Source: Trichococcus alkaliphilus
Lineage (GTDB): Bacteria > Bacillota > Bacilli > Lactobacillales > Aerococcaceae
Assembly: GCF_003008695.1 (NCBI RefSeq)
Contig: NZ_PXZT01000005.1
Span: 62,001 to 126,000 of the forward strand
Direction of reading: 5' to 3'
Length of the DNA stretch: 64,000 nucleotides
Part shown: positions 36,689-60,823 of the stretch, piece after piece
How the letters are laid out: every line of letters starts with the position of its first letter
Position numbering within the stretch: position 1 is the stretch's first letter
Position numbers and translations under genes: made by a program
The notes under the pieces: generated by a model
What the model saw: only the letters and a program-made list of their open reading frames with translations
The model's database searches: none
What the model was told of the DNA's origin: nothing

Positions 36689-36739
36689 GCTGTTTATCCT
36701 TTCCTTAAACATTTTCACTACAATCCAAATTTACGTTAA

Positions 36740-39670: not shown

Positions 39671-42600
39671 TTACCCCACCACCAACTTATTCGTCTTCTT
39701 CAAAAACTTCGCCGGGATTGGACGTTCTAATCTCCAGGTAATGTTCATCGGTTTGCTTCCTACATGTTGGACATAGTTAACAAGTCCCAAGAATGTGTAT
39801 GGAGCTGCACCGATGCGATCGTTTTTGAATTCGCGGATGAACAGCAGAACTTTACTCCCACGCTCCCGATGGTGGATGTAGCGCTGACCGGTGGATGCAT
39901 GGTCTCCGGTAGTGCTTTGGCTTTGCCAATGAAAGAGCGTTTCGTTGACGGAGTAGTCGTTATACATTGTCGTTGGTGAGTAGTCCTTGTCCGCTTTATT
40001 TAGGGTAACGAAGAGGACGTCTATTCCTTTTTCAGGCAACCATTTTACGCCTTCACGAACATTGCTCGGATTCATATGATCCATCGCTACCAGCAACTGA
40101 TCGCGGGTATAGGTGCAATGTAAATCGAGCGGGTTCTCAAATCCCAAATCGACAGGTTCATCAATAAAGTCGATCCGATCGAAGTTGTATCTCAATAATT
40201 CCATAAGTTCTTCCATCATCACAGGATTGCTTGAAAGCAAAGTCAGATTCTCTTTGACTTCCGCACTTTCCCAATTTTCGATGGTTTTTTGCCAGATGGT
40301 GATATAGAACATCTGGAACATGCGTTGCTGAATCGGTGACAGCTTCTTCAAGTCGACCTTGTTTAGACGCGGTAAAATATCCAGCAAAAAAGCAATCCAA
40401 CGGCGAGAATCGATGGCACAAATGCGTTTCAACGCTTTGGTGATTGTTTCTTCCAGTTCCTCTTCGAATTCTTCCCGGACCCCTGCCGAGACACATAATC
40501 TCGCAAAGTTGGCTCTCGAGAAAATCGTGCGAACGTCCAAATGATAATAGTCAATGAAATTGGCCAGATCTAAAGGCAGGCCACTGTCTTCTTCAAATGT
40601 CGCGATCCGGCTGATTAAACCATTTTTGGCGCTGAAGGAAGATTTGATGTTGTCCAGCACGTATTTGGCGGCTTTCTTTTCCAACTGGATGTAGCAACCT
40701 TTTGGAGCCGAAACAAAACCATTTTTCAGTTCACTTTGGACACTGTGCGTCGTATTGGAAAGAAGCGCCGAAAATTTTTCTTCAAAATTGTACTTTCTGT
40801 TGGCTTGTCCAATAAAGTCCAGTACGGTCAGACACTCCTTACCTTCAGCCAACCGTAGGCCGCGGCCGAGTTGTTGTAGAAAAATCGTTAAGGATTCGGT
40901 CGGACGCAGAAAGAGAACTGTATTTACTTCCGGGATGTCCACCCCTTCGTTGTAAATGTCGACTACGAAAATAAAGCGGATCTCTCCTGAAACCAAGCGT
41001 TTCTGAGCGCTACGTCTATCTTGGTCGTTGGACTGCCCCGTCAAATGAATCGATGGGATGCCATTATTGTTGAACTGTTCCGCCATAAATTGGGCATGTT
41101 CGATTGAAACACAGAAGCCTAATCCCTTAACTTCGTCGATATCCGTAACGTATTTGTCCAAAGATTGGATCACGTTATTGGAACGGCGCAAAGCGACTCC
41201 GCGATTCAGCGAGTAAAGTTTGTTCAACTCTGATTTATCATACCCTCCCCGAGTCCAGCGCAACTCGCTCAAATCAACGGCATCAGTGACACCGAAATAT
41301 TGGAAAGGAGTCAATAATTTGCGATCGATAGCCTCTGGAAGTCTGATTTCAGCAGCAATACGATTATCAAAATAATCCAAAATACTTTGGCCGTCCATCC
41401 GTTCAGGCGTAGCAGTCAAGCCCAACAAGATACTTGGTTTAAAATGATTCAGCAAGGTTTGGTAAGTAGGAGCGGCTGCGTGGTGGAATTCATCCACGAT
41501 GATGAAATCGTAATAATCTTCGGACAATTTTTCATGTAAGGCTTGGGAGTTCATCGTTTGAATGGAAACGAACAAATTATCCAAACTTTCCGGGTTATGG
41601 TTGCCCACAAACAACTCTCCAAAATTTGGATCTTTCAAGACACCTTGAAAAGTTTCTTGGCTCTGTCTCAAGATTTCTTCGCGATGCGCCACAAACAAAA
41701 GCCTGCATGGTCTTGCTGCATTCATTCGGCAAAAACGTCGGTAATCGAACGCCGAGATCACGGTCTTCCCCGTTCCCGTAGCCGCTACGACAAGGTTGCG
41801 GTAATGACCACGCACTTCCCGCTCAGCAAGAAGTTTGTCGAGGATTTCTTGTTGATAGGGATAAGGGTGGATATCGAAAACAAAGCGTCGAGTCTCTCCT
41901 TCGCCCATGAAACGGTCAGCTTTTAAAGCGCGCACAAGACGCTCACGCTCTGTTGCCTGATAGAACTCAAACTCTGAAGAATTCCAATAACTTTCCAGTG
42001 TTGCGGCGATTTTGCGGATGGTATCCGGTTGGTCCTTTGCGGTAATCTTCAGATTCCACTCCAAGCCACTGGAAATGGCGGCATTTGATAGATTCGATGA
42101 GCCGATATAGGCCGTCGAGAAGCCTGTTTCGCGATAAAACGTGTATGTTTTCGCATGCAGGCGCGTCCTTTTCGTGTCGTAGGAAATTTTGATTTCTGTG
42201 TTCGGCAATTTGCCTAACTCTTCGATCGCCTTGACATCCGTCGCACCCATATAGGAAGTCGTGATGATGCGCAGCTTTCCACCTTTTCCGGTGAAATCTC
42301 GCAGTTCATCGATAATCAGGCGCAATCCGCTCCATTTGATGAAAGAAACTAACATGTCGATGCGGTCTGCTGATTGGATCTCCTTTTTGAGCTCCGAAAA
42401 CATTTGTGGCTCATGGATGGCACCCGTAAAGAGACTGCTTTGAGCGATGGAAGTCTCGGGGCGACTCAGTTTGGCTGCAGTTTTTCCGGCATGGATGTCC
42501 GCATCGTCTTCACCCAAAAGTGCCATAAGCTGTTCTGCACGCTCATCCACGGACATTTCAGCAAAATCATTTTCCTGCGTCGTTTGAGTGATGGTCTCGA

Positions 42601-42820
42601 CGACTTTATTGATAAGCGCGACTTGAGTAGTGATATCTCCACCGTTGTCCGAAACATTATCCAAACCTTTTTGGATGATTTCCGAGAGGTATTGCGTTAA
42701 GACTTTCGAGGCTTCCGCCGCATCGATCTGCGCCACGGATTTGCGGGCTTCCGGAATGTCTTGTAACAGCGATTGGATTTGTTGGTTAATGACTTGTTCA
42801 TATAAGCCTGGATTGAGCAT
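39671..42820 (-). CDS. PLD nuclease + DEAD-like helicase + DUF3427 protein
   Basis: A 1049-aa protein. N-terminal PLD-like nuclease with His222-x-Lys224 (LHAKTYTFY) and the IGSSNLSNAAI follow-up (about 140-265); SF2 helicase with motif I AATGTGKTVIS (346-), motif II VDEFHH, motif III LTATPERMDG and motif VI QLGRGLR; C-terminal DUF3427 beta-rich domain (about 800-1049). The start is ATG 42820 after GAAAG; the longer frame adds 43 residues with unlikely composition. A restriction/defence function is inferred from the domain order and from the neighbours. Confidence 0.85.
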   Translation of the reverse strand: MLNPGLYEQVINQQIQSLLQDIPEARKSVAQIDAAEASKVLTQYLSEIIQKGLDNVSDNGGDITTQVALINKVVETITQTTQENDFAEMSVDERAEQLMALLGEDDADIHAGKTAAKLSRPETSIAQSSLFTGAIHEPQMFSELKKEIQSADRIDMLVSFIKWSGLRLIIDELRDFTGKGGKLRIITTSYMGATDVKAIEELGKLPNTEIKISYDTKRTRLHAKTYTFYRETGFSTAYIGSSNLSNAAISSGLEWNLKITAKDQPDTIRKIAATLESYWNSSEFEFYQATERERLVRALKADRFMGEGETRRFVFDIHPYPYQQEILDKLLAEREVRGHYRNLVVAATGTGKTVISAFDYRRFCRMNAARPCRLLFVAHREEILRQSQETFQGVLKDPNFGELFVGNHNPESLDNLFVSIQTMNSQALHEKLSEDYYDFIIVDEFHHAAAPTYQTLLNHFKPSILLGLTATPERMDGQSILDYFDNRIAAEIRLPEAIDRKLLTPFQYFGVTDAVDLSELRWTRGGYDKSELNKLYSLNRGVALRRSNNVIQSLDKYVTDIDEVKGLGFCVSIEHAQFMAEQFNNNGIPSIHLTGQSNDQDRRSAQKRLVSGEIRFIFVVDIYNEGVDIPEVNTVLFLRPTESLTIFLQQLGRGLRLAEGKECLTVLDFIGQANRKYNFEEKFSALLSNTTHSVQSELKNGFVSAPKGCYIQLEKKAAKYVLDNIKSSFSAKNGLISRIATFEEDSGLPLDLANFIDYYHLDVRTIFSRANFARLCVSAGVREEFEEELEETITKALKRICAIDSRRWIAFLLDILPRLNKVDLKKLSPIQQRMFQMFYITIWQKTIENWESAEVKENLTLLSSNPVMMEELMELLRYNFDRIDFIDEPVDLGFENPLDLHCTYTRDQLLVAMDHMNPSNVREGVKWLPEKGIDVLFVTLNKADKDYSPTTMYNDYSVNETLFHWQSQSTTGDHASTGQRYIHHRERGSKVLLFIREFKNDRIGAAPYTFLGLVNYVQHVGSKPMNITWRLERPIPAKFLKKTNKLVVG

Positions 42821-43065
42821 GGAATCACACTTTCTGCAGCGAATTTTTTGTGGCTTTAAATGATGATTCAGTGTACAATTTTCGTATTTACGCAAAATAA
42901 TTATTATAATTTTAATTATAGTTAAATTTGATGAACAATTCAATGACATTGTAATTCCCGGCCGTCAACATCATTATCCAGTCCTCCTTGGCGGCTGGAA
43001 GAATACAAGCAGTCGACGCTTTGAGGATTCTGAAGGGGCATGCTGTGCTCAGTTGAAGAACCGAA
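42821..43065. other. Intergenic, no feature found
   Basis: Upstream of the helicase gene and past the HAD gene end. I see an AT-rich promoter-like stretch near 42885-42925 but no gene that I can support on either strand. Confidence 0.4.
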
Positions 43066-47707: not shown

Positions 47708-47824
47708 TCAGCCGCGCTTCTTGTGGGCACGTATCATTTGTATGTTCGCTTCCGATATCCCATGGTCCGAATTCAGAAGCGTGCCATCCAGGTCCAATGC
47801 GATCAATTTTATTATCTTGCTCAC
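47708..47824 (-). pseudogene. N-terminal fragment of a Cof-type HAD phosphatase
   Basis: GTG start with AAGGATCAG upstream, reading MSKIIKLIALDLDGTLLNSD and ending at TGA after 38 codons (AHKKRG). Motif I DLDGTLLN is intact, the rest is missing. It lies 11 bases after the ROK kinase stop, so it was the last gene of that operon. Confidence 0.72.
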
Positions 47825-47834
47825 CTGATCCTTC

Positions 47835-48788
47835 TTAACGCTCGTTTGGATGCTGTTGTGCCGTCAAGTAGGCGTAGACGGCGCCATAAATACCAGCATC
47901 ATTTCCAAGTTTCGCTTTTTTCACACCGTAATTGCCTCTGATTTCCGGAAACACATGCCGATCGATGACCGCCTTCAATGGCTCCAGCAACAAGTCACCC
48001 GCTTCGGAAAGCCCGCCGCCTACCACAATCTCTTCCACATCGATGGTGTTCATGATCCCCGCCAAGGCAAAGCCCAGATACGTGACTGTTTTTTGGACAG
48101 CCTGTTCAGCCAGTGCATTGCCTTCTTTGAGCCAGTCGAAAATATCGATGGTCGTGAAGCCGTCCTTCGTCAGCTGCTTCCTTTCATCGAGCAGGCTCAT
48201 CGTCTTCAGCAGTCCGGTTGCGGATGAATAGGTCTCCAGGCAGTTGATGTTGCCGCATCCGCAAACCCGCTGTTCTTCCGATTGGACAGGGATATGCCCG
48301 ATTTCCCCGCCGGATGAGTGGGTTCCGTTCAGGACCTCCCCGTTCAGGATGATGCCGCCTCCGACACCGGTGCCCAAAGTCACAAACACCAGATTCGCTT
48401 TCCCTCTGGCCGCTCCCTTCCACATTTCACCCAAAGCCGCCGCATTGGCATCATTGAGCAGAATGACCGGCAGCTGCAATTCCTTCTCGATCACCAATTT
48501 CAATGGCATGTCCGACCATCCCAGATTGACGGCTTTCACGACCAATTCCCCGTTCTGGGAAATCGGACCCGGAACGCCAATGCCGATACCGATGATGTCT
48601 TCCGAACCGTCCGTTCCGTTCAAAATCTCTTCGTTGATGGCGCGGATGATGGCATTCGGGATATGGTTACCGTTATCCGCCGCATCTGTTTTGATTTTCC
48701 ATTTTTTTGAGATGTTTCCGTAAACATCGATCAGGGCAAACTTGATTTCCGTCCCGCCGATATCGATCCCGATCATTTTTTTAGCCAT
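47835..48788 (-). CDS. ROK-family sugar kinase (glucokinase-like)
   Basis: A 317-aa cytoplasmic kinase. DIGGTEIKF (ATP-binding) at the start, GVPGPI, NDANAAALGEMW with the catalytic Asp, TLGTGVGGGI and the zinc-binding CGCGNINCLETYSS are all clear. It phosphorylates glucose or a similar hexose. The start is ATG 48788 after AAAGGAGA; a longer frame adds 19 residues. In the C-glycoside-type operon it would capture the released sugar. Confidence 0.9.
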   Translation of the reverse strand: MAKKMIGIDIGGTEIKFALIDVYGNISKKWKIKTDAADNGNHIPNAIIRAINEEILNGTDGSEDIIGIGIGVPGPISQNGELVVKAVNLGWSDMPLKLVIEKELQLPVILLNDANAAALGEMWKGAARGKANLVFVTLGTGVGGGIILNGEVLNGTHSSGGEIGHIPVQSEEQRVCGCGNINCLETYSSATGLLKTMSLLDERKQLTKDGFTTIDIFDWLKEGNALAEQAVQKTVTYLGFALAGIMNTIDVEEIVVGGGLSEAGDLLLEPLKAVIDRHVFPEIRGNYGVKKAKLGNDAGIYGAVYAYLTAQQHPNER

Positions 48789-48903
48789 TTTATGTTCTCC
48801 TTTAAAAAAAAGGATGCGAAATACCCCTGAAGCCGAGTAATCCACATCTCATCTTTATGTTTAGTTGTTGTCTGTTTTTGGGATTCAAATCAAGCAAACT
48901 TGC

Positions 48904-49818
48904 TTACTGGACAAAATTCCTCAAATAAAGAGTACTTTGCCGTACGGATGTCTTCACTGCAGCATAATCTTTTTCATATGCCTTGTCCTCCACCTCGATG
49001 CAGGTATGCCCTTCATAGCCGATATCCGTTAAGGCAGAAACGTATTTCCCCCAATCGACGTCGCCCAAGCCAGGCAGTTTCGGACTCATGTACTGCAAAG
49101 GCGTTGCCATGATGCCGACATTTGCCAACTTTTCCGGATACACTTTGATGTCTTTGTAGTGGACATGGAATAATTTGTCCCTGAATTCATACAGCGGCTT
49201 GATGTAATCCATTTGCTGCCAGACAAAGTGGGAAGGATCGAAGTTCAAGCCGATATGATCGCTGTCCAACAGCTCGAATACTTTCCGGAACAATGCCGGA
49301 GTCGTCATGAGATTCTGTCCGCCCGGCCACTCGTCTTCCGTGAACAGCATCGGGCAATTCTCAATCGCGATTTTGACGTTCTTTTCCTCCGCATGCTTCA
49401 CGATTGGTGCCCAAACTTTCGCGACTTCCGCCAAGTTTTCGCTGACTGTTTTTGAAGGCATGCGCCCGATGAAGGTCGTGACCATGTTGACATTCAGCAA
49501 CGCAGCCGCATCGATGACCGAATAGAGATGATCGATGGCCAGTCGGCGTTTTTCGGCATCTTCGTCCAATGGATTCGGATAGTAGGCCAAAGCAGAAATT
49601 TCCACACCTTTGCTGGAAGCATAAGCGTTCAATTCAGTGGCCTTTTCTTGAGTGAGGCTTTCGGTATCGATATGGGATACCCCGGCATAGCGGCGCTCCG
49701 CTTTGCCTGCGGGCCAGCAAGCGACTTCCACGCAATCCAGCCCGTTTTCAGCAACAATATCGATCATTTCCTTAAAATCACTTTGATCAAGGATCGAGGT
49801 AACCAGTCCTAGTTTCAT
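48904..49818 (-). CDS. Sugar phosphate isomerase/epimerase-family TIM barrel
   Basis: A 304-aa xylose-isomerase-like TIM barrel. Likely metal ligands are Glu in IENCP, Asp in NFDPSHF, His in HVHYKD and Glu in IEVEDKAY. It could isomerise, epimerise or cleave 3-keto sugars; its place next to Gfo/Idh/MocA and deglycosidase genes suggests work on a 3-oxo glycoside or its product. Thirty-two bases separate it from the next gene upstream. Confidence 0.85.
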   Translation of the reverse strand: MKLGLVTSILDQSDFKEMIDIVAENGLDCVEVACWPAGKAERRYAGVSHIDTESLTQEKATELNAYASSKGVEISALAYYPNPLDEDAEKRRLAIDHLYSVIDAAALLNVNMVTTFIGRMPSKTVSENLAEVAKVWAPIVKHAEEKNVKIAIENCPMLFTEDEWPGGQNLMTTPALFRKVFELLDSDHIGLNFDPSHFVWQQMDYIKPLYEFRDKLFHVHYKDIKVYPEKLANVGIMATPLQYMSPKLPGLGDVDWGKYVSALTDIGYEGHTCIEVEDKAYEKDYAAVKTSVRQSTLYLRNFVQ

Positions 49819-49850
49819 ACTTTTTCCTTCTTTCGACGATTTATCAATGT

Positions 49851-50906
49851 TTATTCGAATGATACGGATCTGTGCTCTTTCGCGGATACACGGATGGCAT
49901 CAAGCAGGCTCATCAAGCGCAGGATTTGCGCCGGTTGCACAATCAATGCTTCTTCACCGTTCACGTGTTTGTTGTAGTGCTCGAAAAACATGTCATGATT
50001 GACAGTGACTTCCGGAAGCGGTTCCGAAACCAATCTGCCTTCCGGGGCTGGACCGAATGAGCGGGTTGGGCCGGCAGCGGTCATCGTGATTTTTCCGGGA
50101 ACGTTCTTCAGCAACTCTGATGTCCGGACGATTTTGCCTTCCGGATGGAATCCATCGACATAGGCGCTGCCTTTGTTTCCTCCGACAAACCAGTGGCGTT
50201 CGAACCAAGTTTCCTTATCGGTCAGGAAATAAGTTCCCAGCTCGACTTGTCCGCTGATGCCGCTGTCAAAATGCAGCTGGATATTGAAGTAATCATCGAC
50301 TTCTTTGTTGATCACATTGCGGACATCCGCATATACAGTCGTCAACTTCCCGGGAATCATCCAGAGCATCTGATCCAGCAGATGCACGCCCCAATCATAG
50401 AGCATGCCGCCACCGAACTCCGGATAAATATGCCAATCGTGCATATTGCCGTTGAAGCCGTACAAAGCATTTTTGATTGTGTAGACATCTCCGAGCGTAC
50501 CGCTGTCGACCACTTCCTTGATCAGGCGGTAGTCTTTGTCCCAGCGGCGCTGGTGATGGACCGTGAAGCGCACTTTGGCGGCTTCCGTTACGGCGATCAT
50601 TTCCTTGAATTCTTCCGCATTCATCGCGGCCGGTTTCTCCACGATGATGTCTTTTCCTGCTTGTGCAGCTTTTTTGACCATTTCCAGGTGCAGATGGTTC
50701 GGGACCGCGATGATGACTGTGTTGATTTCGTCATTCGCCAACAGCTCATCCGCCATCAGGTGCGTTTCCACCCCTTCCGCTGCATGTCCGAGTTGATCCT
50801 TGTTGATGTCGCAGACTGCGATCAATTCCGCGAAATCCAATTTATTGATGGTTTCGGCATGGGTTTGACCCATGAATCCGAAACCGATGATGCCAAATTT
50901 CAACAT
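49851..50906 (-). CDS. Gfo/Idh/MocA-family oxidoreductase, copy 2
   Basis: A 351-aa NAD(P)-dependent sugar oxidoreductase. Rossmann motif GIIGFGFMG (4-12), EKPAAM with the catalytic Lys, GGGMLYDWGVHLLDQ with catalytic His. It would oxidise or reduce a ring hydroxyl, e.g. to a 3-keto sugar. Directly downstream of deglycosidase pair 2. Confidence 0.87.
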   Translation of the reverse strand: MLKFGIIGFGFMGQTHAETINKLDFAELIAVCDINKDQLGHAAEGVETHLMADELLANDEINTVIIAVPNHLHLEMVKKAAQAGKDIIVEKPAAMNAEEFKEMIAVTEAAKVRFTVHHQRRWDKDYRLIKEVVDSGTLGDVYTIKNALYGFNGNMHDWHIYPEFGGGMLYDWGVHLLDQMLWMIPGKLTTVYADVRNVINKEVDDYFNIQLHFDSGISGQVELGTYFLTDKETWFERHWFVGGNKGSAYVDGFHPEGKIVRTSELLKNVPGKITMTAAGPTRSFGPAPEGRLVSEPLPEVTVNHDMFFEHYNKHVNGEEALIVQPAQILRLMSLLDAIRVSAKEHRSVSFE

Positions 50907-50953
50907 ATGTATTGCCCCTATCTTTCATGATCTTCAACGATCCTGTATTTTGC

Positions 50954-51343
50954 TTATATCGTGACTGTGCGCTCTTTCATTCCGACCAACGGCACCGGGA
51001 TATAGGCCGTTCTTGTGGCGATCGTCAGAGCCACATCATGGTTACCTTTCGCCAATCCGCCCTCTTTCATCACGCGAATATGCAGAGGTTCGCCGTATTC
51101 CCATTTGTAGGAAGAGACTGTCGCAGCTTCCTTCAGAGTGAACCAATCTTCCTCATCAATCGAAATCTGGATTGCGGTTGGCTCTTCCTCTACGCCATCG
51201 ACAGCGACTTTTACGAATTCCACCATCGACAAAGGAATCCCGCGGTAGTAAGTGATCAGTGTCTGCAGTCCGTAACCGATTGTCGTGCCGTTTTCTACGA
51301 TATTTTTGCAAGTATCTTTTTTGAATACATTATTATCAAACAT
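50954..51343 (-). CDS. C-glycoside deglycosidase beta-subunit-like (DUF6379), pair 2
   Basis: A 129-aa protein of the small DUF6379/CGD-beta type. Shared features with the second copy at 52451 are the YYRGIPLS (versus YYRGLWLS) segment, the VEFVKVAVDG strand and the GNHDVAL (versus GYHDIEI) motif. In known C-glycoside deglycosidases (DgpB/DgpC, DfgA/DfgB, CarB/CarC) the beta subunit folds against the TIM-barrel alpha subunit. It follows its alpha partner by 12 bases. Confidence 0.74.
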   Translation of the reverse strand: MFDNNVFKKDTCKNIVENGTTIGYGLQTLITYYRGIPLSMVEFVKVAVDGVEEEPTAIQISIDEEDWFTLKEAATVSSYKWEYGEPLHIRVMKEGGLAKGNHDVALTIATRTAYIPVPLVGMKERTVTI

Positions 51344-51355
51344 CTTTTCTTCCCC

Positions 51356-52366
51356 CTACCCTTGGATTTCTTTCAAACAAGCTTGCAGAAATTGCTGGTT
51401 GGCGATGACTTGCTGGATTTCCTGCATCGGCTCACCCGGTAAGATGAAGCGGTTGCCTTCGTATTCAGTCGCTACATAGCCATCGTACTGGTGCTCATGG
51501 AGATATTCCAATAAGCCTTTATAATCCATCGAGTATTCTGGTCCCTCAGGAGTCATTTCGAACATTTTGATATGGAAGTGCTTGATGTAAGGCATGTATT
51601 CATCCATCACTGAGAATGGATAGTTTTCATAGCCATCGCACAGCGGCGCAAACATGTGGTCCTCTTTGGTTTTGATGACTTGTTTGAATTCCTCAGGATA
51701 AGTGCCGCCATTCTCTTTACGGACTCGGTGCAAGTCCGTACCTTTTTCGAACAAGCTATCGAGGTAATCGAACATTTCTGGGCTGGCGCCATTGTTGACC
51801 TCGTAGGCACGTACAACCCGTGGGAATTTTTTGCAGAAGATCCCGGTGTCGATGACCAGTCCGATGTACGGAGAATCCAGACGTTTCATTTCTTCGATGA
51901 ACGCAAGCGTTTCTGGGCCGTCGAAAGCCATCCCTGCATGGATTTCCAGGGCAATGGTAACGTCGTACTCTTTGCAGTAAGGCAGCAACGGTTCGCACAC
52001 CCAGTAAGGGACCATCGAAACCAAGCGGATCATTTTCATGCCCAAGCGGTTTGCCTGCTTGATTTCTTGAATCAGCAAATCGATGCATTCTTTTTTCGTC
52101 AGCGTGCGGTTGTTGTAGAGGTTGGAGTTCAAGAAGACATCGGCAATGACCGGTTTCACGCCGGTTTGGTCAAGCAGCGCGTGCCAGTGATCAACCTCTT
52201 CCTGGGATGGATGCGGCGCATTTTTGATCATCTGATCCGGCAACATTTCCACGCCTTCAACGTTAAGATCTTTCAGTAAGTTCATCAGGTCTTCCAAGTT
52301 CATTCTTTTGTTCAGATATTCGTCTTGCAGGCTGTACAGACTGACAGCAGTTTTGATTCTTGCCAT
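51356..52366 (-). CDS. C-glycoside deglycosidase alpha-subunit-like TIM barrel, pair 2
   Basis: A 336-aa xylose-isomerase-like TIM barrel. The Mn-binding residues of the CGD family are apparent: Glu in ALEIHAGM, Asp in LVIDTGIF, His in HFHIKMF, Glu in ATEYEGN. In DgpC/DfgA/CarC-type enzymes this subunit cleaves the C-C bond of 3-oxo-C-glycosides. Followed immediately by its beta partner. Confidence 0.76.
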   Translation of the reverse strand: MARIKTAVSLYSLQDEYLNKRMNLEDLMNLLKDLNVEGVEMLPDQMIKNAPHPSQEEVDHWHALLDQTGVKPVIADVFLNSNLYNNRTLTKKECIDLLIQEIKQANRLGMKMIRLVSMVPYWVCEPLLPYCKEYDVTIALEIHAGMAFDGPETLAFIEEMKRLDSPYIGLVIDTGIFCKKFPRVVRAYEVNNGASPEMFDYLDSLFEKGTDLHRVRKENGGTYPEEFKQVIKTKEDHMFAPLCDGYENYPFSVMDEYMPYIKHFHIKMFEMTPEGPEYSMDYKGLLEYLHEHQYDGYVATEYEGNRFILPGEPMQEIQQVIANQQFLQACLKEIQG

Positions 52367-52450
52367 TATTTTTTTCCTCCTAGTTGTTAGTGGTTAGTGG
52401 TCAGTGGTTATAGGCTTGCTGTTTGCGGCAAGCTAAAATCAAACGGATCA

Positions 52451-52858
52451 TTACGAAACTAACAGCAATTTCCTTCTATGATTCCCATAACTCAATACTT
52501 CGTCCATATTAGGGGGCATATATGACGAACTGAATCTGTGATCGATTTCAATATCGTGATATCCTGTTGTTAAGCCGCCTAAGACATTTACATGGATGGA
52601 AGCTGGCTCCAAAACATTCCATTGGATATCCCCAATTCCCTTCAATTCATCTTGTTTGTATAGCTTTCCGTTTATTTCCCAGGAAATGTCCTCTAATCGG
52701 ACTGCTTCTCCGTCAACCTTTATATGGATGGGTCTAAGCTGAGATAGCCATAATCCTCTATAATACATCAGGCGAATATCAAACTGAAAACCAATCACTT
52801 CCTGATCCACTACTGTATTTTTAAACCCTCTGGATTGAATGCATTCTTTTTCCAGCAT
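52451..52858 (-). CDS. C-glycoside deglycosidase beta-subunit-like (DUF6379), pair 1
   Basis: A 135-aa DUF6379-type protein (YYRGLWLSQLRPIHIKVDG, SWEINGKLYKQDEL, GYHDIEIDH). It lies 10 bases after its alpha partner. It is divergent enough from the pair-2 subunit that the two pairs are not a recent duplication and may have different substrates. Confidence 0.74.
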   Translation of the reverse strand: MLEKECIQSRGFKNTVVDQEVIGFQFDIRLMYYRGLWLSQLRPIHIKVDGEAVRLEDISWEINGKLYKQDELKGIGDIQWNVLEPASIHVNVLGGLTTGYHDIEIDHRFSSSYMPPNMDEVLSYGNHRRKLLLVS

Positions 52859-52868
52859 ATGCTATCCC

Positions 52869-53744
52869 TCACTTCCCTAATAAGTTTTTCAACATGATTT
52901 GATGCCGTTTCACCTGATCAGACGCATGCCCTGTCACTTCTGCTTTTGCACCTTCATACTCACTGATCAAGTAGCCTTCCCAGTTATGCTTAATGAGTGT
53001 TTGTATGATCTCTTCATATGGAATAACAACCTCACGAAAATTTTCATCCATCCTTAAAAATTTTGCATGGCAGCAATAAACATACTTCAAAAGCGGTACC
53101 AGCTCTTCAACTTTGCTGTGTTCGCATGGAGGGCCCACAAAATCATTTTCACCGAATCCTACTAAAGCATTATCTCCAGTCTGAAAAATACTGAAATCAA
53201 TATTCAATCCGAAAAATTCAGTATTCTCTTTTTCGATAAATTCCACATAATCGTGAATCATTCTCGAATCTAAAATAGTTGGACTATGGATTTCAGGACA
53301 CATGCGGACATCATATTTTTCTGCCAATCCCAGTGCACCTTTGATGAATTCACGCCAGTTGGATACAGGGGTAAGGGTATCATCAATAACGCCTAATTTT
53401 GTTCTTAAAACCTTAAATCCCAGCTTATTTGCAATTTTGAAATCTCGCTCAAGCATATCGATACTTTCTTTAGTAGTGAGTTCCCTGCCTTTATATAACC
53501 TGGATTCAACCCAGTGACCATATTCCGCTGGTTCCAATTTAAAGTGATTCAATTTTTGGTGCCAGTCATCAATCCAAGCTTCAGTTACATCAGGATACTT
53601 AACGATATGAGAATTTGCCAAGATCTCAATTCCAGTAGCTCCCGTGTCGCAGATGTCTTGCATGATGTCGTCAAGATCCATTGAGACTCCGAATACTTTG
53701 TTGTAGCTATATGCAGAAACTCCACGCTTAATGTTATGCTCCAC
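52869..53744 (-). CDS. C-glycoside deglycosidase alpha-subunit-like TIM barrel, pair 1
   Basis: A 291-aa TIM barrel, shorter than pair 2. The putative metal ligands are Glu in CPEIHSP, Asp in NIDFSIF, His in CCHAKFLRM and Glu in ISEYEGA. The start is GTG 53744, seven bases after GGAGG (a TTG before it is only within the site). Only 17 bases after the oxidoreductase gene. Confidence 0.77.
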   Translation of the reverse strand: MEHNIKRGVSAYSYNKVFGVSMDLDDIMQDICDTGATGIEILANSHIVKYPDVTEAWIDDWHQKLNHFKLEPAEYGHWVESRLYKGRELTTKESIDMLERDFKIANKLGFKVLRTKLGVIDDTLTPVSNWREFIKGALGLAEKYDVRMCPEIHSPTILDSRMIHDYVEFIEKENTEFFGLNIDFSIFQTGDNALVGFGENDFVGPPCEHSKVEELVPLLKYVYCCHAKFLRMDENFREVVIPYEEIIQTLIKHNWEGYLISEYEGAKAEVTGHASDQVKRHQIMLKNLLGK

Positions 53745-53761
53745 TATTGTTCCTCCCAAGA

Positions 53762-54859
53762 TTAATCAAATTCAACGACTTGTCCTGTCTCAGCTGATTT
53801 GTAGATTGCTTCCAGGATTTGGGTCACGACGATCGCTTGTTCAGGCTTCACCATTGGGTCCGTGTCATTCAGGATTGCATCCACCCACTGTTTGGCTTCA
53901 GCATCACGTTGCTCCAAGGTAGCTCCTTCGAATCCGAACACACCGCCTGCATCGGATGGTTGCGTCTGCTCTAATTGGTTATGGGCCGCTTTATTGAAGA
54001 CGACATAGCCCTGATCGATGAAAGCTTTTCCGAACATTTCTGCTCCGCCTTCAGTTCCGCAAAGCGTAACCTGGGCTTCTTTCGGGTTGATCATGTTGAG
54101 CGCCCAAGCAGCCTCCAGGAAGATGGTCGCGCCGTTTTCCATTTTGATCAGTCCGAATGCCGAGTCTTCCGTTTCGAAAGTATCCGGATTCCAAGGACCG
54201 AACATGTTCGCCATCGGATTGTCCTTCAGTTTTTGATAAGTTGATCCTAGTACTGATTTTGGTTTGTAGTTGTTCATGTACCAAAGCGTCAAGTCCAAGG
54301 CATGCGTGCCAATGTCGATCAGTGGGCCCCCGCCTTGTTTTGATTTATCCGGGAAGACTCCCCAGGTAGGAACGCCTTTGCGGCGGATGGCATGCGCTTT
54401 TGCGAAATAGATATCGCCCAATTCGCCTTTGCTGCAAGCATCGTAAGTAGCTAAGGAATCGGCACGGAAGCGGTTCTGGTAGCCGATCGTCAATTTTTTG
54501 CCGGTGCGTTCAGCAGCATCCAGCATTTCTTTTGCCTCTGCATAGTTGATCGCCATCGGTTTTTCGCACATGACATGTTTCCCTGCTTCCAAGGCATCAA
54601 CCGTGATGTATGAGTGGGAAATATTCGGCGTCAACACATGGATGACATCAATGTCTTCTCTAGCCAAAAGCGCTTTGTAGTCTTCCGTCACTAAAGCATC
54701 CGCAATACCATATTCCTTGGCCGCTTTTTCAGCCCGTTCGATGACCGTGTCACAGAAAGCCACGATTTCCACTTTATCCGATAATTTAGCCAATGCCGGG
54801 AAATGCTTCCCGTTGGCGATTCCTCCGCAGCCGATGATGCCGAATTTTAATTTATTCAT
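53762..54859 (-). CDS. Gfo/Idh/MocA-family oxidoreductase, copy 1 (DgpA-like)
   Basis: A 365-aa NAD(P)-dependent oxidoreductase. GIIGCGGIA (8-16), CEKPMA with the catalytic Lys, GGGPLIDIGTHALDL with catalytic His. DgpA of a puerarin-degrading gut bacterium, a member of the same family, makes the 3-oxo-glycoside that the deglycosidase needs; by position this gene fits that role. First gene of the operon, AAAGGAGG before the ATG. Confidence 0.88.
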   Translation of the reverse strand: MNKLKFGIIGCGGIANGKHFPALAKLSDKVEIVAFCDTVIERAEKAAKEYGIADALVTEDYKALLAREDIDVIHVLTPNISHSYITVDALEAGKHVMCEKPMAINYAEAKEMLDAAERTGKKLTIGYQNRFRADSLATYDACSKGELGDIYFAKAHAIRRKGVPTWGVFPDKSKQGGGPLIDIGTHALDLTLWYMNNYKPKSVLGSTYQKLKDNPMANMFGPWNPDTFETEDSAFGLIKMENGATIFLEAAWALNMINPKEAQVTLCGTEGGAEMFGKAFIDQGYVVFNKAAHNQLEQTQPSDAGGVFGFEGATLEQRDAEAKQWVDAILNDTDPMVKPEQAIVVTQILEAIYKSAETGQVVEFD

Positions 54860-55097: not shown

Positions 55098-56720
55098 CTA
55101 GTGGATAGGATTATAGGAAAACCAATCGAATAAGACTTGCTTATTCTTCGGCTCGCTCACCCCGCTGCCAAACATACCAATATACGCTCCAACGAATCCA
55201 CCGGCCGTCTCTGACCCCAGGAAACTACCATCGATATTTTCTGAAACTGTCGCCATGTTTTTTTCATCAGCTCCCGCATAGAAGCTGTATTTCGTTTCAT
55301 CAGACGCTATTTTCAAGAACAATACATTGTCCAGGGAATTGTTAATTTCGATCGTATTGTGGCTGCTCTCTCTGTAATAGAGCTTCTTATTCTCAACATA
55401 AGTATCAGCAGTGATGCATCTAACGCAAGTATTCCCGGCATTATTTTGAAAAACTTCCAGTCGCAGCTGATGGGCATTGTTTTGTAGCACAACCAATCCC
55501 GCTGTTTCTTCCTGCTCGGGTTTGAATATCATTTTAGTGATTGCTTCAAACTTCAAATGCTGTTGTCTTTTGCCGATGAAACTGACACATTCTTTTGTCT
55601 TACCGCTCTCTTGATATCGTTCCATCATATCAGCGCTGAGGCCCTGAAGCTCCCAAGGCGTGACTTGCTTTTGTAAAAGTTTCAATCTTAAGTGCCCATC
55701 TTCGATGTCAGCAAAATCTTCGTATGGCGTTCCCAGATAATTCCATTGCAATCCGATTTTTTCATCATTGAAGTCATCAAAGAATTCCTCAGTCTTTTTT
55801 GGTCCGACAGGGAGATCGGTGGGGTTCGGATAGGTAAATTCGACCTTACCGGTTCCGTAGCTCACAATCGGCCAGCCATCTTCCCATATGACCGGAGCAA
55901 TAAACGTTTCCCGGCCCAATATTTTATGGTAACCACCCATCAGTCTTGAGCCCAGCATTACCATATACCAAGATCCATTTGCTAATTCCACAAGATCACC
56001 GTGTCCAACATTGCATATCGGATAATTTTTGCCAAGGTGCCTGTGGGTTAAGATAGGATTGCCTTTGTACCCCTCATATTCCCCCATGACCTCCTTGCTC
56101 CTGCTGATTGTGATTGCATGAAAGTGTTCTGTTCCTCCTTCAGAGATCATAAGATAATACCAACCGTCTTTTTTATACAGGTGGGGGCCTTCGGGAGAAG
56201 CGGCATTCTTCAAAGCACCGCTCCACAACACTTTTCTTTCCCCAACAAGTTTCATGGTTTCTAAATCAATTTCGCTGCACCAAATTCTGGGTTCTTCTCC
56301 GAAACCGGTAGTACCCGTATAATATGCCTTGCCGTCATCATCAAAAAATAATGAGGGGTCTATTCCGTCAGCCCCATGGATCACATTAATTTCAGACCAA
56401 GGCCCTTTTGGGTCCTTAGCCGTAACAATGAAGTTATTTCCTTGCATCGTTACGTTGGTGGTAATGACGTAGAACATCCCATCGTGGTAACGGATAGTGG
56501 GTGCAAAAATCCCCCCGGAAATCATTTCATAGGTCAAAGGCAGTTGACTTTTACGGTCAAGAACATTGCCGACTTGTTCCCAGTTGACGAGATTTTTACT
56601 GTGAAAAATAGGAATCCCTGGAAAAAAACTGAAGCTGGATGAAATTAAATAAAAATCATCTTCCACACGCACTATTGATGGATCCGGATAACATCCCGGA
56701 AGTATAGGATTTTCAATCAT
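55098..56720 (-). CDS. GH43-family beta-xylosidase-like glycosidase
   Basis: A 540-aa intracellular glycosidase. Catalytic base Asp13 (YPDPSI), Asp in GIDPSLF near 120 and acid Glu in SPEGPHL near 188 form the GH43 triad. The C-terminal part (about 330-540) is a concanavalin-like beta-sandwich as in beta-xylosidases of subfamilies 11/12. The start is ATG 56720; a GTG upstream lacks a site. Probably acts on arabinoxylan-type oligosaccharides imported by the symporter. Confidence 0.88.
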   Translation of the reverse strand: MIENPILPGCYPDPSIVRVEDDFYLISSSFSFFPGIPIFHSKNLVNWEQVGNVLDRKSQLPLTYEMISGGIFAPTIRYHDGMFYVITTNVTMQGNNFIVTAKDPKGPWSEINVIHGADGIDPSLFFDDDGKAYYTGTTGFGEEPRIWCSEIDLETMKLVGERKVLWSGALKNAASPEGPHLYKKDGWYYLMISEGGTEHFHAITISRSKEVMGEYEGYKGNPILTHRHLGKNYPICNVGHGDLVELANGSWYMVMLGSRLMGGYHKILGRETFIAPVIWEDGWPIVSYGTGKVEFTYPNPTDLPVGPKKTEEFFDDFNDEKIGLQWNYLGTPYEDFADIEDGHLRLKLLQKQVTPWELQGLSADMMERYQESGKTKECVSFIGKRQQHLKFEAITKMIFKPEQEETAGLVVLQNNAHQLRLEVFQNNAGNTCVRCITADTYVENKKLYYRESSHNTIEINNSLDNVLFLKIASDETKYSFYAGADEKNMATVSENIDGSFLGSETAGGFVGAYIGMFGSGVSEPKNKQVLFDWFSYNPIH

Positions 56721-56804
56721 ATTTCCCACTCATTTCTTGGTGTTGATTCTTAAAGCTAATGTTTCTGAAACAGATTTCCTTACAAAATACCTTGCCTCAA
56801 TCCA

Positions 56805-58217
56805 TTAATCTTCTTCTAGTTCTCGGATTTCCAATTCGACTGCGATTTGATCCATTTGTTTTTTATCAAGTTTGTACCAATACAAGGGAAGAATGCTGAG
56901 TACCATTAAAATCGCAGGGACTAAGTTTACTACAACATTTATTCCTGTGATAGAGGCTTGTGACTGTACTGCTCCTGGTACATAACCGGTTGCTGAAAGC
57001 ATCAGCACTCCCCCGGCTCCGGCTATCGCTGATGCAAGTTTTACACCAAATCCTAAGAACGAGAATGTCAATCCTTCATCTCGCACTCTATATTTCCAAT
57101 CTCCATATTCCACACAATCAGATAACATTCCTGTGGAAACACTGCCAGCTGAGTTCGCAAGTCCAATAAATGCAGCAGTCGTCAGCAAGAAGGCGGTGTT
57201 ACCGGATGGGAAAAGAAAAAGAACGAATATAGATATAATACTGATCAGACTTAGTATCAGCAACCAATTTCTCTTACCAAATTTCTTTGTAGCCACTGGC
57301 AACAACATACTACCTATCAATTGAAAAACAGTCATACTTGTAAAAATTGGTGCAATCATTGTAAAAGATCCGACTACATAAATTACATAGTATGCAAGTA
57401 AGGTCATTCTTCCAATAACGGACATTGCCCCCAAGAAAACACTCCAAACTGTGATCAACAGCATTTTGTTTTTAAATAGCGCTTTCAAAGATGTCGTAAC
57501 AGAAATTTTTTGTTTCTCTCTCTTCCTTGAATCCGTTCTTGCTGTTTCCTTACAATGATATGCTGTTAGCCAAAAAGCTGGAATCATAATCAGGGAACAA
57601 ATAACAGTGACCCAAAAGTAGCCTCGAGAATTAGCAACATCACTGTTACTGAAAAATAAGATGGCTGGCATTACTGCTATGGATAAAATCATTTGAATGA
57701 TACTGCCACCAACTGCTCTTGCTGACGTATAATTCATTCGAACTTGTGAGTCTTTTGCAATTCGGTTTACTAAACTGGCATACCCAACCGAAAGTGCAGT
57801 ATAAGACATTCCTGCGCCAATATATAAAACTAAGCAAAGAATTACTTTCGTTAGACCTTCTACAGGGAAAACCGTAAACGTAAGAATATTAAATATAGCT
57901 AGGAATGGTGGAGCAAAAATGAGATATGGCCTGAATTTACCCCATCTAGTATGTGTTCTATCAGCTATGATGCCCATCATTGGATCGTTCACAGCATCCC
58001 AGATACGAGCAACAAGCATGATCATTGAAATCGCAGCAGCAGAAAGCCCAATAATATCAGTGTAAAAAATCATCAGATAGGTATTGATCATATACCAACT
58101 CAATTGACTTCCAACTTCACCGAAGCTGTAAAAAACAGCTATCTTTTTACTTGTTTTTTCTTGAATTTGCACTTTTTGACTAGCTACCTCAAAATTCATA
58201 TCCACCTGTTTTTCCAT
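56805..58217 (-). CDS. GPH-family sugar:cation symporter (MelB/XylP-like)
   Basis: About 470 aa with 12 predicted hydrophobic segments. The family segment is near the start (SYGFGEVGSQLSWYMINTYL-type; here FGEVGSQLSWYMIN), and the cytosolic loop RTHTRWGKFRPYL is diagnostic. Transports glycosides, pentosides or hexuronides with Na+ or H+. The start is ATG 58217 after GGAGGAAG. It lies upstream of the GH43 gene and probably forms an operon with it. Confidence 0.88.
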   Translation of the reverse strand: MEKQVDMNFEVASQKVQIQEKTSKKIAVFYSFGEVGSQLSWYMINTYLMIFYTDIIGLSAAAISMIMLVARIWDAVNDPMMGIIADRTHTRWGKFRPYLIFAPPFLAIFNILTFTVFPVEGLTKVILCLVLYIGAGMSYTALSVGYASLVNRIAKDSQVRMNYTSARAVGGSIIQMILSIAVMPAILFFSNSDVANSRGYFWVTVICSLIMIPAFWLTAYHCKETARTDSRKREKQKISVTTSLKALFKNKMLLITVWSVFLGAMSVIGRMTLLAYYVIYVVGSFTMIAPIFTSMTVFQLIGSMLLPVATKKFGKRNWLLILSLISIISIFVLFLFPSGNTAFLLTTAAFIGLANSAGSVSTGMLSDCVEYGDWKYRVRDEGLTFSFLGFGVKLASAIAGAGGVLMLSATGYVPGAVQSQASITGINVVVNLVPAILMVLSILPLYWYKLDKKQMDQIAVELEIRELEED

Positions 58218-58252
58218 TTGTCTTCCTCCTGATTGTAAATTATAAGACCGCT

Positions 58253-58266
58253 TGTAATCGATTACA
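58253..58266. promoter_or_regulatory. Perfect palindromic cre-like/LacI-type site
   Basis: TGTAATCGATTACA, a perfect 14-bp palindrome matching TGNAANCGNWWNCA, about 40 bases before the symporter start. CcpA or a LacI-family protein could bind. Confidence 0.6.
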
Positions 58267-58364
58267 TACATAGTTTATACCGGGACGGAAGTTTCCTCTA
58301 CTTTGATAGCGTTTAAATTCATGGTACTTCCATGACAAGAAAACGCTACCTTTTATTGTTGTGT

Positions 58365-58387: not shown

Positions 58388-60823
58388 CTAATTTGATACT
58401 TTTTGGATGTCAAACAAGCAAATATCATACGGGGACAGATGGATTTCCAGTACTAATTTATCATCGCTGATGATTTGTGTCAGTATTTCGATCTTCGGAA
58501 CGCATTTTTGCTTCAGGTATTGGATCATTTCTTTATCAAAATGATCGATTTGGCTGATCGCATTGACTTCTTCCAAAAAATTGCCGTTGTTCTTCCCGAT
58601 GCTGTACTTGGTGATCCGGTATTTCCCGGCTGCTTCAAAGCCATTCAGTTCAATTGTCCAATCGATCGGCTGTTCATTGTCAAAAATGGCGTAGGCATTG
58701 TTTTTGTGGAATCCTCCGATGGTGTCGTAGTAATAGGTCGCATTCAAATGGCTGTAGTGGTAGCACAGCAACTGATATTGCTTTTCTTTTCTGGTCACAA
58801 TCAGATTTTCGGAAGCGAAGATTCTTTTCGGACCTAATTTCTTCAGAAATTTGAAAGCATAGTAACCGATTTTTGGGACTCCGTTTTTGGATAGGATACC
58901 GGCTCCGCCAAAGATTTCTTTTTTGGCTGTATCGAAACTGGTCACCGTCAAATCCGACATTTGCCAATACCCGATCAGATCGCAATAGGAAAGGATCGAA
59001 AGGATATTCTTCAGGATATAGGCGCCTTTGAAGGCCGTATCATTGACGATTTCCCTGTTCAGGATGGTCACGTTGAACTCCGTCACGTACAACTTCGTAC
59101 CCAAATCCAATTCATCCAGTAAGGTGCGGATGTCCTTGATTTTATTCAGCATATAATCTTCATCATGGGAAATCGGATTCGCACGCTTCTCTACAACATA
59201 GCCATGTTTGATTTCATCGATCGGATAGATGCCGATGCTGATGAAGTCCGGTTTGACTTTTTCATGTTTCCATTTGCGCAGAAAATTCCGCATGTCTCCC
59301 CGCTCGATGTCCAAACTCAATCCGCAGCCGCCTACTTGCATTCCCGGAACGATACGCTTGATAGATTCGCTGATTTTACTGAAGTAACGGATATAGTGCG
59401 GATACTGCGAAATATCCACCTGTCCGTCGCCCATCTCGATCAGGGATAGCTGTTCCTGATCCGTGTTCTTAAGGACCAATGCGTTAGGTTTCCATATTTC
59501 GATGATCCATTTTGAGACTTCCTCATCGCCGTACTTATCGATGCAATGGTTGAGAAAGGTTGTGAACCTGAGCAAAATCCCGTCCATTCTGTTGGTCTTC
59601 AGCTCAAACGGTTCTTTCTTAATGATTTTTGTATGGGTTTCATGTATCAGTTTGCCTTTGAATCCGAGTTCCAAAAACGGAATCATCCCGGCATCGAGAA
59701 CCGTCTGCAGGATTTCATCAACTTTTGTGAAGTCGAATTCATCGCCAACTTGTTCAAATAATACATTGTTGAACAAGCCCCAAATCCGGCCATAGCGAAA
59801 AGCGTTCTGCTCTTGCGTGTATCGGATCTGTTGGGCGAACGACGTGTGGAGCAGGTCACCGGCGTAACCGAGATTGATCAGATATTTGTCGTAATCGAAA
59901 TCTTCCGACTCTGAAACATCGATTTTCAGCTTGTCGGCACTATTGCCTTCCTCCTCTTCCACAAAGTACTTCTGCAGATCCGTCAATTCTTCATTCGGTA
60001 TCGCAAAAGGTGAAGATTGGATTTCGATGCCTTTTTTTGATTCTCTGCGGTACTCGCTGGGAGTCAGCCCTTGATATTTTTTGAACAACCGGTTGAAGGA
60101 ATTGATGTTGGAAAATCCAGCTGAGAATGCAATGTTGGTCACGGATTTTTCTGTTTCGAACAAATCTTTCCGCACTTTTTCCAAGCGCTTTCTGATCAGA
60201 TACTCGCTCAGTGACAAGCCGATTTCGTTCGAGAACAGTTTGGAAAGGTATTGTTCCGATACGAACAATTTCCCCGCCAAATCGGATAAGCGGATCTCTT
60301 TATCAAAGTTATTATCGATGTAAAATTTGACTTCCTCGACTTTTTGCTTGATGCTCCTGTCCGACTCAAGTTGCACTTTCACAAAATACTTCTTTTCCAA
60401 CGTATTGATGAGGTTGAAGTACACCTCAAAGATTTCCGATATCCGTTTCTGTTCCTTGAAAATATACAGTTCCACCAATTGGTTCAACAGATAGGTTACC
60501 TGCATATCCGAGCTGTGGGTATTTTTGACTGAATCGCCGGTAAAATAGTAGCTGTACGGGTCGGACTCATCCTCTTCGGAATAAAAATACTGCAGCGACA
60601 ACTGAAAAACTTTTGAGTCGCCGGTATGGCATGTATACGATTTGGATTTATGCAGAATGAAAAAATCGTCCTTTTGCAAAGTCAAATAACTGCCTTCGGA
60701 TTCTACCGACAGTTCCCCGACCAACACATACAGCAGATGGATATCATCATCAAAATTTTGGATGACTTCCTTGTTTCCGATTTTTTTAATCTTGATGTTT
60801 TCCCATGGATTGATGAGTTTCAT
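58388..60823 (-). CDS. AraC-family regulator fused to a GH39-like domain
   Basis: An 811-aa protein: cupin-like sensor (1-150), AraC HTH (165-262), linker, GH39-like TIM barrel (about 300-790). In active GH39 enzymes the acid/base Glu lies in W-N-E-P-N; here the corresponding stretch reads IEIWKPNAL (442-449), so that Glu is missing. The nucleophile-type TEFNVT (Glu582) remains. The second domain may therefore bind a xyloside-like ligand without cleaving it and act as sensor. AAGAGGTG precedes the ATG. Its probable targets are the symporter/GH43 genes next door. Confidence 0.84.
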   Translation of the reverse strand: MKLINPWENIKIKKIGNKEVIQNFDDDIHLLYVLVGELSVESEGSYLTLQKDDFFILHKSKSYTCHTGDSKVFQLSLQYFYSEEDESDPYSYYFTGDSVKNTHSSDMQVTYLLNQLVELYIFKEQKRISEIFEVYFNLINTLEKKYFVKVQLESDRSIKQKVEEVKFYIDNNFDKEIRLSDLAGKLFVSEQYLSKLFSNEIGLSLSEYLIRKRLEKVRKDLFETEKSVTNIAFSAGFSNINSFNRLFKKYQGLTPSEYRRESKKGIEIQSSPFAIPNEELTDLQKYFVEEEEGNSADKLKIDVSESEDFDYDKYLINLGYAGDLLHTSFAQQIRYTQEQNAFRYGRIWGLFNNVLFEQVGDEFDFTKVDEILQTVLDAGMIPFLELGFKGKLIHETHTKIIKKEPFELKTNRMDGILLRFTTFLNHCIDKYGDEEVSKWIIEIWKPNALVLKNTDQEQLSLIEMGDGQVDISQYPHYIRYFSKISESIKRIVPGMQVGGCGLSLDIERGDMRNFLRKWKHEKVKPDFISIGIYPIDEIKHGYVVEKRANPISHDEDYMLNKIKDIRTLLDELDLGTKLYVTEFNVTILNREIVNDTAFKGAYILKNILSILSYCDLIGYWQMSDLTVTSFDTAKKEIFGGAGILSKNGVPKIGYYAFKFLKKLGPKRIFASENLIVTRKEKQYQLLCYHYSHLNATYYYDTIGGFHKNNAYAIFDNEQPIDWTIELNGFEAAGKYRITKYSIGKNNGNFLEEVNAISQIDHFDKEMIQYLKQKCVPKIEILTQIISDDKLVLEIHLSPYDICLFDIQKVSN

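Follow-up and report, generated by a model that had tools for sequence, protein, structure and literature searches.

A cluster of eight genes in the 2.96-Mb genome of Trichococcus alkaliphilus probably forms an operon for the degradation of C-glycosides, in which a second lyase pair seems to have been added to an older operon that carried a single pair; we put the probability of this reading at about 0.85. The stretch analysed, here called the window, comprises 64,000 nucleotides (contig NZ_PXZT01000005.1, positions 62,001 to 126,000), and within it the eight genes run co-directionally on the minus strand from position 54859 down to 47835, in the order gfoA, alpha1, beta1, alpha2, beta2, gfoB, TIM3 and ROK kinase, with the remnant of a HAD gene downstream (Table 1). 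By Pfam, they encode two Gfo/Idh/MocA oxidoreductases, three TIM barrels of the AP_endonuc_2 family, two small CGDB proteins (PF19906) and one ROK protein. The intergenic gaps are, in order, 2, 10, 84, 12, 47, 32 and 115 bases, i.e., none exceeds 115 bases, and each AP_endonuc_2 alpha gene adjoins its own CGDB gene, at a distance of 10 bases in pair 1 (alpha1 and beta1) and of 12 bases in pair 2 (alpha2 and beta2). The original prediction, drawn from the letters of the window, had described eight genes in one direction with short gaps and a HAD fragment, and this arrangement was recovered in full between positions 47708 and 54859.

The two pairs were then compared with solved C-glycoside deglycosidases (CGDs). 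The small proteins scored 116.8 bits (beta1) and 118.8 bits (beta2) against PF19906, about four times the cut-off of 27.6 bits, and their best PDB matches were DfgB (7bvs_B, 1.7e-29) for beta1 and DgpB1 from P581a (9m3b_B, 2.6e-41) for beta2, which bore out the predicted homology of the small proteins to CGD beta subunits. The partner of beta1 matched DfgA best (7bvs_A, 3.3e-96; 50.4% identity over 280 residues), and that of beta2 matched P581a DgpC1 (9m3b_A, 4.1e-130; 59.8% identity over 331 residues). As had been anticipated, the pairs differ a lot from each other, with identities of 29.7% between the alphas and 26.6% between the betas. In a tree of 32 alpha sequences (27 from the window and the loci read, and 5 PDB chains), alpha1 grouped with DfgA (support 100/99) and alpha2 with P581a DgpC1 (100/100 for the wider clade), and DgpC from strain PUE belonged to a third clade (100/100) that contained neither of them; the deeper joins of this tree were weak (85/54), and the program flagged long branches. 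The proposal that alpha2 is an orthologue of PUE DgpC, to which it is 27% identical, was rejected because of this separate clade.

The catalytic residues are also retained. The metal ligands and the base of a CGD alpha subunit are reported to lie in E-x-H, D, H-x-K and E-x-E motifs (PMC8563793), and the corresponding positions are occupied by E156, H158, D188, H231, K233, E267 and E269 in alpha1, and by E141, H143, D173, H265, K267, E301 and E303 in alpha2, whose H143 aligned with His143 of the PUE enzyme (PuCGD). Both betas carry YYRG at residue 32, and in both a tyrosine (Y33 in beta1) aligned with the beta-subunit residue Tyr39 of PuCGD, which is reported to be critical for C-C cleavage (PMC13273386). 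The two alphas differ in architecture: alpha2 aligned over its full length with the lid-bearing PuCGD alpha subunit, and the alignment of alpha1 skipped about 65 PuCGD residues, i.e., the lid region is missing. A lid region is likewise described as absent from EuCGD, the DfgA-DfgB enzyme of Eubacterium cellulosolvens (PDB 7bvs, 7dre and 7exb; PMC8563793). EuCGD, the best PDB match of both subunits of pair 1, resembles it in the short alpha subunit, the gap-free alignment of the active-site loop region and the retained catalytic residues; it differs in that the alphas are about 50% identical, beta1 has 135 residues rather than 160, and pair 1 shares its operon with another pair. By these sequence criteria, both pairs are CGD-type alpha/beta pairs of different clades.

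With regard to specificity, the original prediction had suggested that the pairs might serve flavone and isoflavone types of substrate. The characterized homologues do not point to this division and split instead by the position of sugar attachment: EuCGD is reported to be specific for C6 and PuCGD for C8, without overlap on the six compounds tested (PMC8563793). Since the published specificities divide in this way, a C6-directed pair 1 would be the better guess, and pair 2, to judge from the tree, groups with neither EuCGD nor PuCGD. It could also be argued that the two pairs are redundant and cleave the same glycosides, pair 1 being a recent hitch-hiker with no new role, and four Catenibacillus species do carry 3 to 6 dgpBC clusters each (a fifth species carries none), with no distinct roles given for them in the text available to us (PMC11170127). 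We consider this unlikely, because the alphas are only 29.7% identical and belong to separate clades with different architectures, because the C6 and C8 specificities of the two characterized enzymes did not overlap, and because pair 1 is free of stop codons in 3 of the 3 same-genus genomes that carry it.

The evidence for an insertion came from the related loci (genomes and loci are given here by our own G and L numbers). The order gfoA-alpha2-beta2-gfoB-TIM3-ROK was found in all seven Enterococcus loci read (L012-L015, L017, L018 and L021, from E. raffinosus, avium, pallens, florum and sp. MJM16; four further E. raffinosus plasmid matches were left out), and alpha1 and beta1 were present in none of them. 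Within the genus, the site holds both pairs in G000, G007 and G012 and pair 2 alone in G008, so that an empty site is available in L010 and in L027 (G008). In L010, 40 bases separate the gfoA stop from alpha2, and the last of these are the same as the bases preceding alpha2 in the window. The GC content at third codon positions (GC3) is 0.37 for alpha1 and 0.39 for beta1, versus 0.54-0.63 for gfoA, alpha2, beta2 and gfoB, and the same contrast with gfoA, alpha2 and gfoB was observed in G012 (L024) and in L011. The interval from gfoA to alpha2 is free of transposase genes; no search for repeats was made at its junctions. Because the Enterococcus loci are without pair 1, the genus offers an empty site and the GC3 is lower, pair 1 has the appearance of a module that joined an operon already in place. 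The converse history, in which the ancestral operon contained the two pairs and the lines represented by L010 and L027 lost pair 1, would account for the presence of pair 1 at one and the same site in three same-genus genomes. Gain is nevertheless the likelier course, and loss seems improbable to us, given that no DfgAB-type pair occupies the site in the seven Enterococcus loci or in the Lachnospiraceae loci L016 and L020 (near the site in L020 there is a different pair, from the DgpC clade), and that the GC3 of pair 1 is below that of its neighbours in 3 of the 3 carriers examined.

The oxidoreductases are also of the expected type, in agreement with the prediction that the pairs are accompanied by such enzymes. 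GfoA is 88.2% identical over 364 residues to DgpA1 from W974-1 (PDB 9m3d), which in turn shares 86-88% with the Enterococcus and same-genus GfoA sequences, and its next-best PDB match was PUE DgpA (7xr9, 470 bits). GfoB matched best the 'P581a DgpA2 and isoorientin complex' (9m37_A, 6.9e-176), so that the closest solved proteins of both bear the DgpA name. A levoglucosan pathway was rejected, since the two oxidoreductases scored 94.1 bits (GfoA) and 70.3 bits against NF052479, the levoglucosan dehydrogenase model, whose cut-off is 650 bits.

In published systems, the sugar is first oxidised at C3 by DgpA, which recovers its NAD through the reduction of 3-oxo-glucose (PMC11239390), the CGD pair then breaks the C-C bond by a metal-assisted beta-elimination that yields 1,5-anhydro-D-erythro-hex-1-en-3-ulose (PMC8563793), a compound also called 2-hydroxy-3-keto-glucal (PMC13273386), and a hydratase converts this product into 3-keto-glucose, which is reduced by a Gfo-type enzyme (PMC10628242, PMC7676230). 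This four-step route is reported for the PUE, Agrobacterium and levoglucosan operons (PMC10628242, PMC7676230). By analogy with DgpA, GfoA would carry out the NAD-dependent C3 oxidation of the sugar of an aryl C-glucoside, its NADH being recycled via 3-oxo-glucose. One of the two CGD heteromers would then take the C2 proton (with His158 of alpha1 or His143 of alpha2, beside a divalent metal), and beta-elimination of the C-C bond would expel the aglycone, the sugar leaving as 2-hydroxy-3-keto-glucal. TIM3 would add water to give 3-keto-glucose, GfoB, or GfoA in its return stroke, would reduce this to glucose, and the ROK kinase would form glucose 6-phosphate. The original prediction had the organism oxidise, cleave and phosphorylate C-glycosides; a ROK kinase is indeed present, but, being a glucokinase-type protein, it should act on the released glucose and not on the C-glycoside. 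The insertion of a DfgAB-type pair between gfoA and alpha2 would have widened the range of glycosides accepted.

PUE DgpABC (PuCGD 7bvr; DgpA 7xr9) likewise combines a Gfo/Idh/MocA oxidase with an alpha/beta lyase, and the same mechanism is expected; GfoA is of the DgpA type, whereas alpha2 belongs to another clade than DgpC. The Agrobacterium AtOGE/AtHYD and Bacillus smithii Lgd operons are described as sharing the succession of oxidation, elimination, hydration and reduction, with two types of TIM barrel and a Gfo-type reductase (PMC10628242, PMC7676230), but AtOGE has no beta subunit and is reported to be without sequence similarity to CGEs (PMC10628242), and the Lgd operon is set apart by the levoglucosan dehydrogenase score given above. 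The nearest solved relatives are DgpB1/DgpC1 and DgpA2 from P581a for pair 2 and GfoB, and DgpA1 from W974-1 for GfoA. The Enterococcus single-pair operon has the identical order of shared genes and differs in the lack of alpha1 and beta1.

The distribution of these genes was surveyed in 395 sampled genomes of the order, 14 control genomes and 13 genomes of the genus. CGDB genes were detected in 9 of the 395 order genomes and in none of the 14 controls, which excludes chance as their source, and in 4 of the 13 genus genomes. CGD-positive genomes commonly contain several CGD pairs: at least two CGDB genes were counted in 6 of the 9 (two each in G000, G007, G034 and G222, three in G275 and four in G012), and two-pair clusters were also found in L025, L028 and L030. 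GfoB homologues (E≤1e-90) occurred in 8 of the 395 genomes, all of them CGDB-positive. For TIM3, 12 genomes had homologues at E≤1e-20, eight of them CGDB-positive, and at a cut of 1e-120, picked after the scores had been seen, 10 remained, seven of them CGDB-positive; G034 (CGDB-positive) and G228 (CGDB-negative) gave weaker matches only. Fisher's test gave 6.6e-16 for the association of GfoB with CGDB and 1.5e-11 for that of TIM3 with CGDB at 1e-120, values that treat related genomes as independent, which they are not, and that rest, for many genomes, on counts scored for the best five first-look candidates. An earlier search for TIM3 in 299 genomes of the class had given three matches at 1e-40, the window's own genome among them.

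From the literature, Enterococcus faecalis W12-1 is reported to remove the sugar from orientin, vitexin and isovitexin (PMC6537369), and DfgAB homologues of uncultured gut species have been tied to the conversion of mangiferin (PMC12101588). We recognised no description of the present operon in a literature search that covered C-glycosides in Trichococcus and Enterococcus and left most subscription journals outside, and the same search returned no relevant paper naming strain P581a or W974-1.

A different use of the operon was also weighed, namely that it serves mainly C3-oxidised O-glycosides, the CGD pairs being 3-keto-O-glycoside eliminases that meet C-glycosides incidentally. A DgpA-type enzyme is reported to oxidise O-glycosides too (PMC11239390), PuCGD to eliminate 3-keto-phlorizin too (PMC13273386), and there are TIM3 homologues in genomes without CGDB, of which that in G231 has genes for a Gfo protein, an ABC sugar transporter and a LacI regulator as neighbours, a context that suits a sugar-handling enzyme serving more than one 3-keto pathway. 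We regard this use as quite improbable: 3-keto-O-glycosides can break down without any CGD (PMC12724307, PMC11239390), so that two heteromeric CGD pairs would not be needed for them, and both pairs retain the beta subunit with the tyrosine reported as critical for C-C cleavage (PMC13273386).

The third TIM barrel, TIM3, is given its putative step in the route by pathway logic. The original prediction had listed this barrel beside the two pairs; it is present, but no beta partner accompanies it to make up a third lyase pair, and a hydratase of the sugar product is the better reading. Its identification as a third CGD alpha subunit was rejected, as no beta gene adjoins it and none of the four PDB entries that it matched by sequence at 1e-4 is a CGD; one CGD alpha was found among the fold matches, at rank 48. 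Of these four sequence matches, the only one named for such a pathway is AtHYD (8ro4), and it is weak (3.2e-7). Residues E153, D194, H197, H218, H220 and E275 are invariant across the 10 aligned sequences. Because the published pathways need a hydration step, and this operon offers no other candidate gene for it, hydration of the sugar product is the likeliest role for TIM3, with the reservation that the evidence for AtHYD itself is termed preliminary in PMC10628242. Alternatively, TIM3 could be a 3-keto-sugar epimerase or isomerase of the YcjR or IolE kind. Its NCBIfam matches, weak and far under the cut-offs, were to IolO, IolE and a psicose epimerase, and a Foldseek search with a modest predicted structure (pLDDT 66.6, pTM 0.76) returned 2zds, ketose 3-epimerases and AtHYD at similar strength (AtHYD at rank 10, E 5.1e-14), with the 3-keto-glucoside 4-epimerase YcjR (6wn6) at rank 44. 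The need for a hydratase and the pathway name of AtHYD make this alternative doubtful, and we prefer the hydratase.

Several observations weigh against the proposal that the operon is a complete C-glycoside route enlarged by pair 1. The best PDB match of TIM3, by sequence (1.1e-14) as well as by fold, is the uncharacterised 2zds, and on the modest model the ketose 3-epimerases score as well as AtHYD. TIM3 copies of 60-63% identity occur in G231, G254 and G352 without any CGDB gene, these being the exceptions at the 1e-120 cut, and no TIM3 was found in the CGDB-positive G275. GfoB may be a second oxidase and not solely a reductase, because the title of 9m37, with its isoorientin complex, suggests that its relative binds glycosides. 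The P581a and W974-1 proteins, which alpha2 and GfoA match at 60% and 88% identity, take their names from PDB titles only. Finally, the window has a mean GC3 of 0.474 (standard deviation 0.116, 42 open reading frames (ORFs)), so that 0.37 falls short of the mean by less than one standard deviation; since a low GC3 alone is not unusual in the window, it is the contrast within the operon that carries the argument for insertion.

The features of the operon and its neighbourhood are listed in Table 1. The probable start of alpha1 is the GTG at 53744, preceded by GGGAGG, in which case the gap between gfoA and alpha1 would be 17 bases. The ROK ORF opens at GTG 48845, and an ATG at 48788 is preceded by GGAG; the long form of the protein scored 268.4 bits against the ROK glucokinase model TIGR00744, which passes the cut-off of 260.35. 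In the HAD remnant, the similarity to an intact 263-residue homologue ends at position 47709, and intact 263-residue copies sit after the ROK gene in L010, L011 and L024. The upstream GH43 gene is separated from gfoA by a long terminator-like hairpin (55056-55027), so that the operon probably has its own promoter; over the whole scan, promoter and terminator hits were no more frequent than in shuffled sequence.

Table 1. Coordinates of the operon genes and of the adjoining features in the window
Feature	Position	Strand	Basis
GfoA; Gfo/Idh/MocA protein, DgpA1 type; predicted C3 oxidase of the glycoside sugar	53762..54859	-	Pfam; PDB 9m3d
alpha1; CGD alpha, DfgA (EuCGD) type, without lid region	52869..53759	-	7bvs_A; clade
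beta1; CGD beta, DfgB type	52451..52858	-	PF19906 5.5e-34; 7bvs_B
alpha2; CGD alpha, P581a DgpC1 clade	51356..52366	-	9m3b_A; clade
beta2; CGD beta, P581a DgpB1 type	50954..51343	-	PF19906 1.3e-34; 9m3b_B
GfoB; Gfo/Idh/MocA protein, DgpA2 type; predicted 3-keto-glucose reductase and/or second glycoside oxidase	49851..50906	-	9m37_A
TIM3; TIM barrel without beta partner; predicted 2-hydroxy-3-keto-glucal hydratase	48904..49818	-	AP_endonuc_2 2.2e-39
ROK-family glucokinase	47835..48788	-	TIGR00744; Pfam ROK
Truncated HAD phosphatase gene, 38-codon remnant	47708..47824	-	matches start of intact relatives
AraC-type regulator with C-terminal GH39-like domain	58388..60823	-	PF12833, PF01229
MFS_2 sugar transporter, operon neighbour	56805..58271	-	PF13347 2.2e-89
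GH43 enzyme, operon neighbour	55098..56729	-	PF04616 3.5e-88

Upstream of the operon, the AraC-type regulator ends in a GH39 domain (PF01229, 1.6e-36), and homologues of this fusion occur in loci with a related CGD operon. In the acid/base region, where we take the GH39 motif to be WNEP, the window and 10 of the 12 aligned relatives have WKPN, L016 is gapped and L022 has WKNED, and the glutamate on the nucleophile side is kept in 12 of 12; the domain is probably a dead glycosidase that acts as a glycoside sensor. No paper clearly on an AraC-GH39 fusion was found in the literature search. In the window and in G007, genes for GH35, an MFS transporter (type b) and GH43 surround the regulator, whereas in the stretches read in G012, G008 and Enterococcus the MFS gene is of another type and neither GH43 nor GH35 was matched. 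The MFS_2 transporter is 96.5% identical in L011 and 34-35% identical in L010, the Enterococcus loci and L024, and in L031 (G280) homologues of it (61%) and of the GH35 protein (59%) both lie near a CGD cluster. Among the loci read, GH43 is common only to T. patagoniensis (L011 and L026). The GH35-family protein of the window (61072-62661) scored 493.2 bits, just below the NCBIfam cut-off of 500. GH35 and GH43 could trim further sugars from decorated C-glycosides, and the changes in pairs and neighbours suggest a stepwise assembly. As a tentative extension, the Trichococcus operons may be built stepwise from exchangeable modules: a conserved frame for oxidation, hydration, reduction and phosphorylation, with a single lyase pair, would have taken up at a fixed site a second lyase cassette that differs in specificity, and in a subset of operons the transporter would then have been exchanged and GH43 and GH35 acquired. 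In this view the AraC regulator, with its dead GH39 domain as ligand sensor, would control the operon.

Some of the related sequences deserve a separate mention. The nearest named copies of alpha2, at 97% each, come from T. patagoniensis and from a contig labelled Sedimentibacter sp. SX930 (L010), whose operon proteins are 95-99.5% identical to those of the window, and this label looks wrong. L019, a 3.9-kb contig binned with candidate division CSSED10-310, carries gfoA, alpha1, beta1 and a partial alpha2 at 95-99% identity to the window, and is probably a mis-binned Trichococcus contig. L022, a plasmid of Niallia sp. Man26, has a 75% identical TIM3 together with HAD, Gfo, a second TIM barrel and a ROK kinase, as well as a regulator that is 27% identical to the AraC-GH39 protein; in the L022 stretch no CGDB product is annotated and neither beta1 nor beta2 was matched, which may point to a related pathway that handles other glycosides. 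Elsewhere in the window, low-GC genes of Lamassu type (LmuB, LmuC and LmuA, in 32204-36718 and 37799-42949; GC3 0.23-0.25) adjoin a Schlafen-group helicase gene and one for a type IV restriction-like enzyme, together forming a defence island.

The original prediction was thus partly supported, being right in outline and in need of the corrections given above. C-glycosides withstand ordinary glycosidases, and there are few complete degradation routes whose genes have each been assigned a role. The operon belongs to the already known C-glycoside lyase operons and is distinguished by its two-pair design and by the availability of natural single-pair controls; it offers, within a compact set of genes, candidates for every step as far as glucose 6-phosphate. 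If the tentative modular reading were true, one operon would open C6- and C8-type as well as further decorated C-glycosides to the organism. As two lyases of different clades are present in one operon, and natural relatives carry a single pair, the contribution of the second pair is testable.

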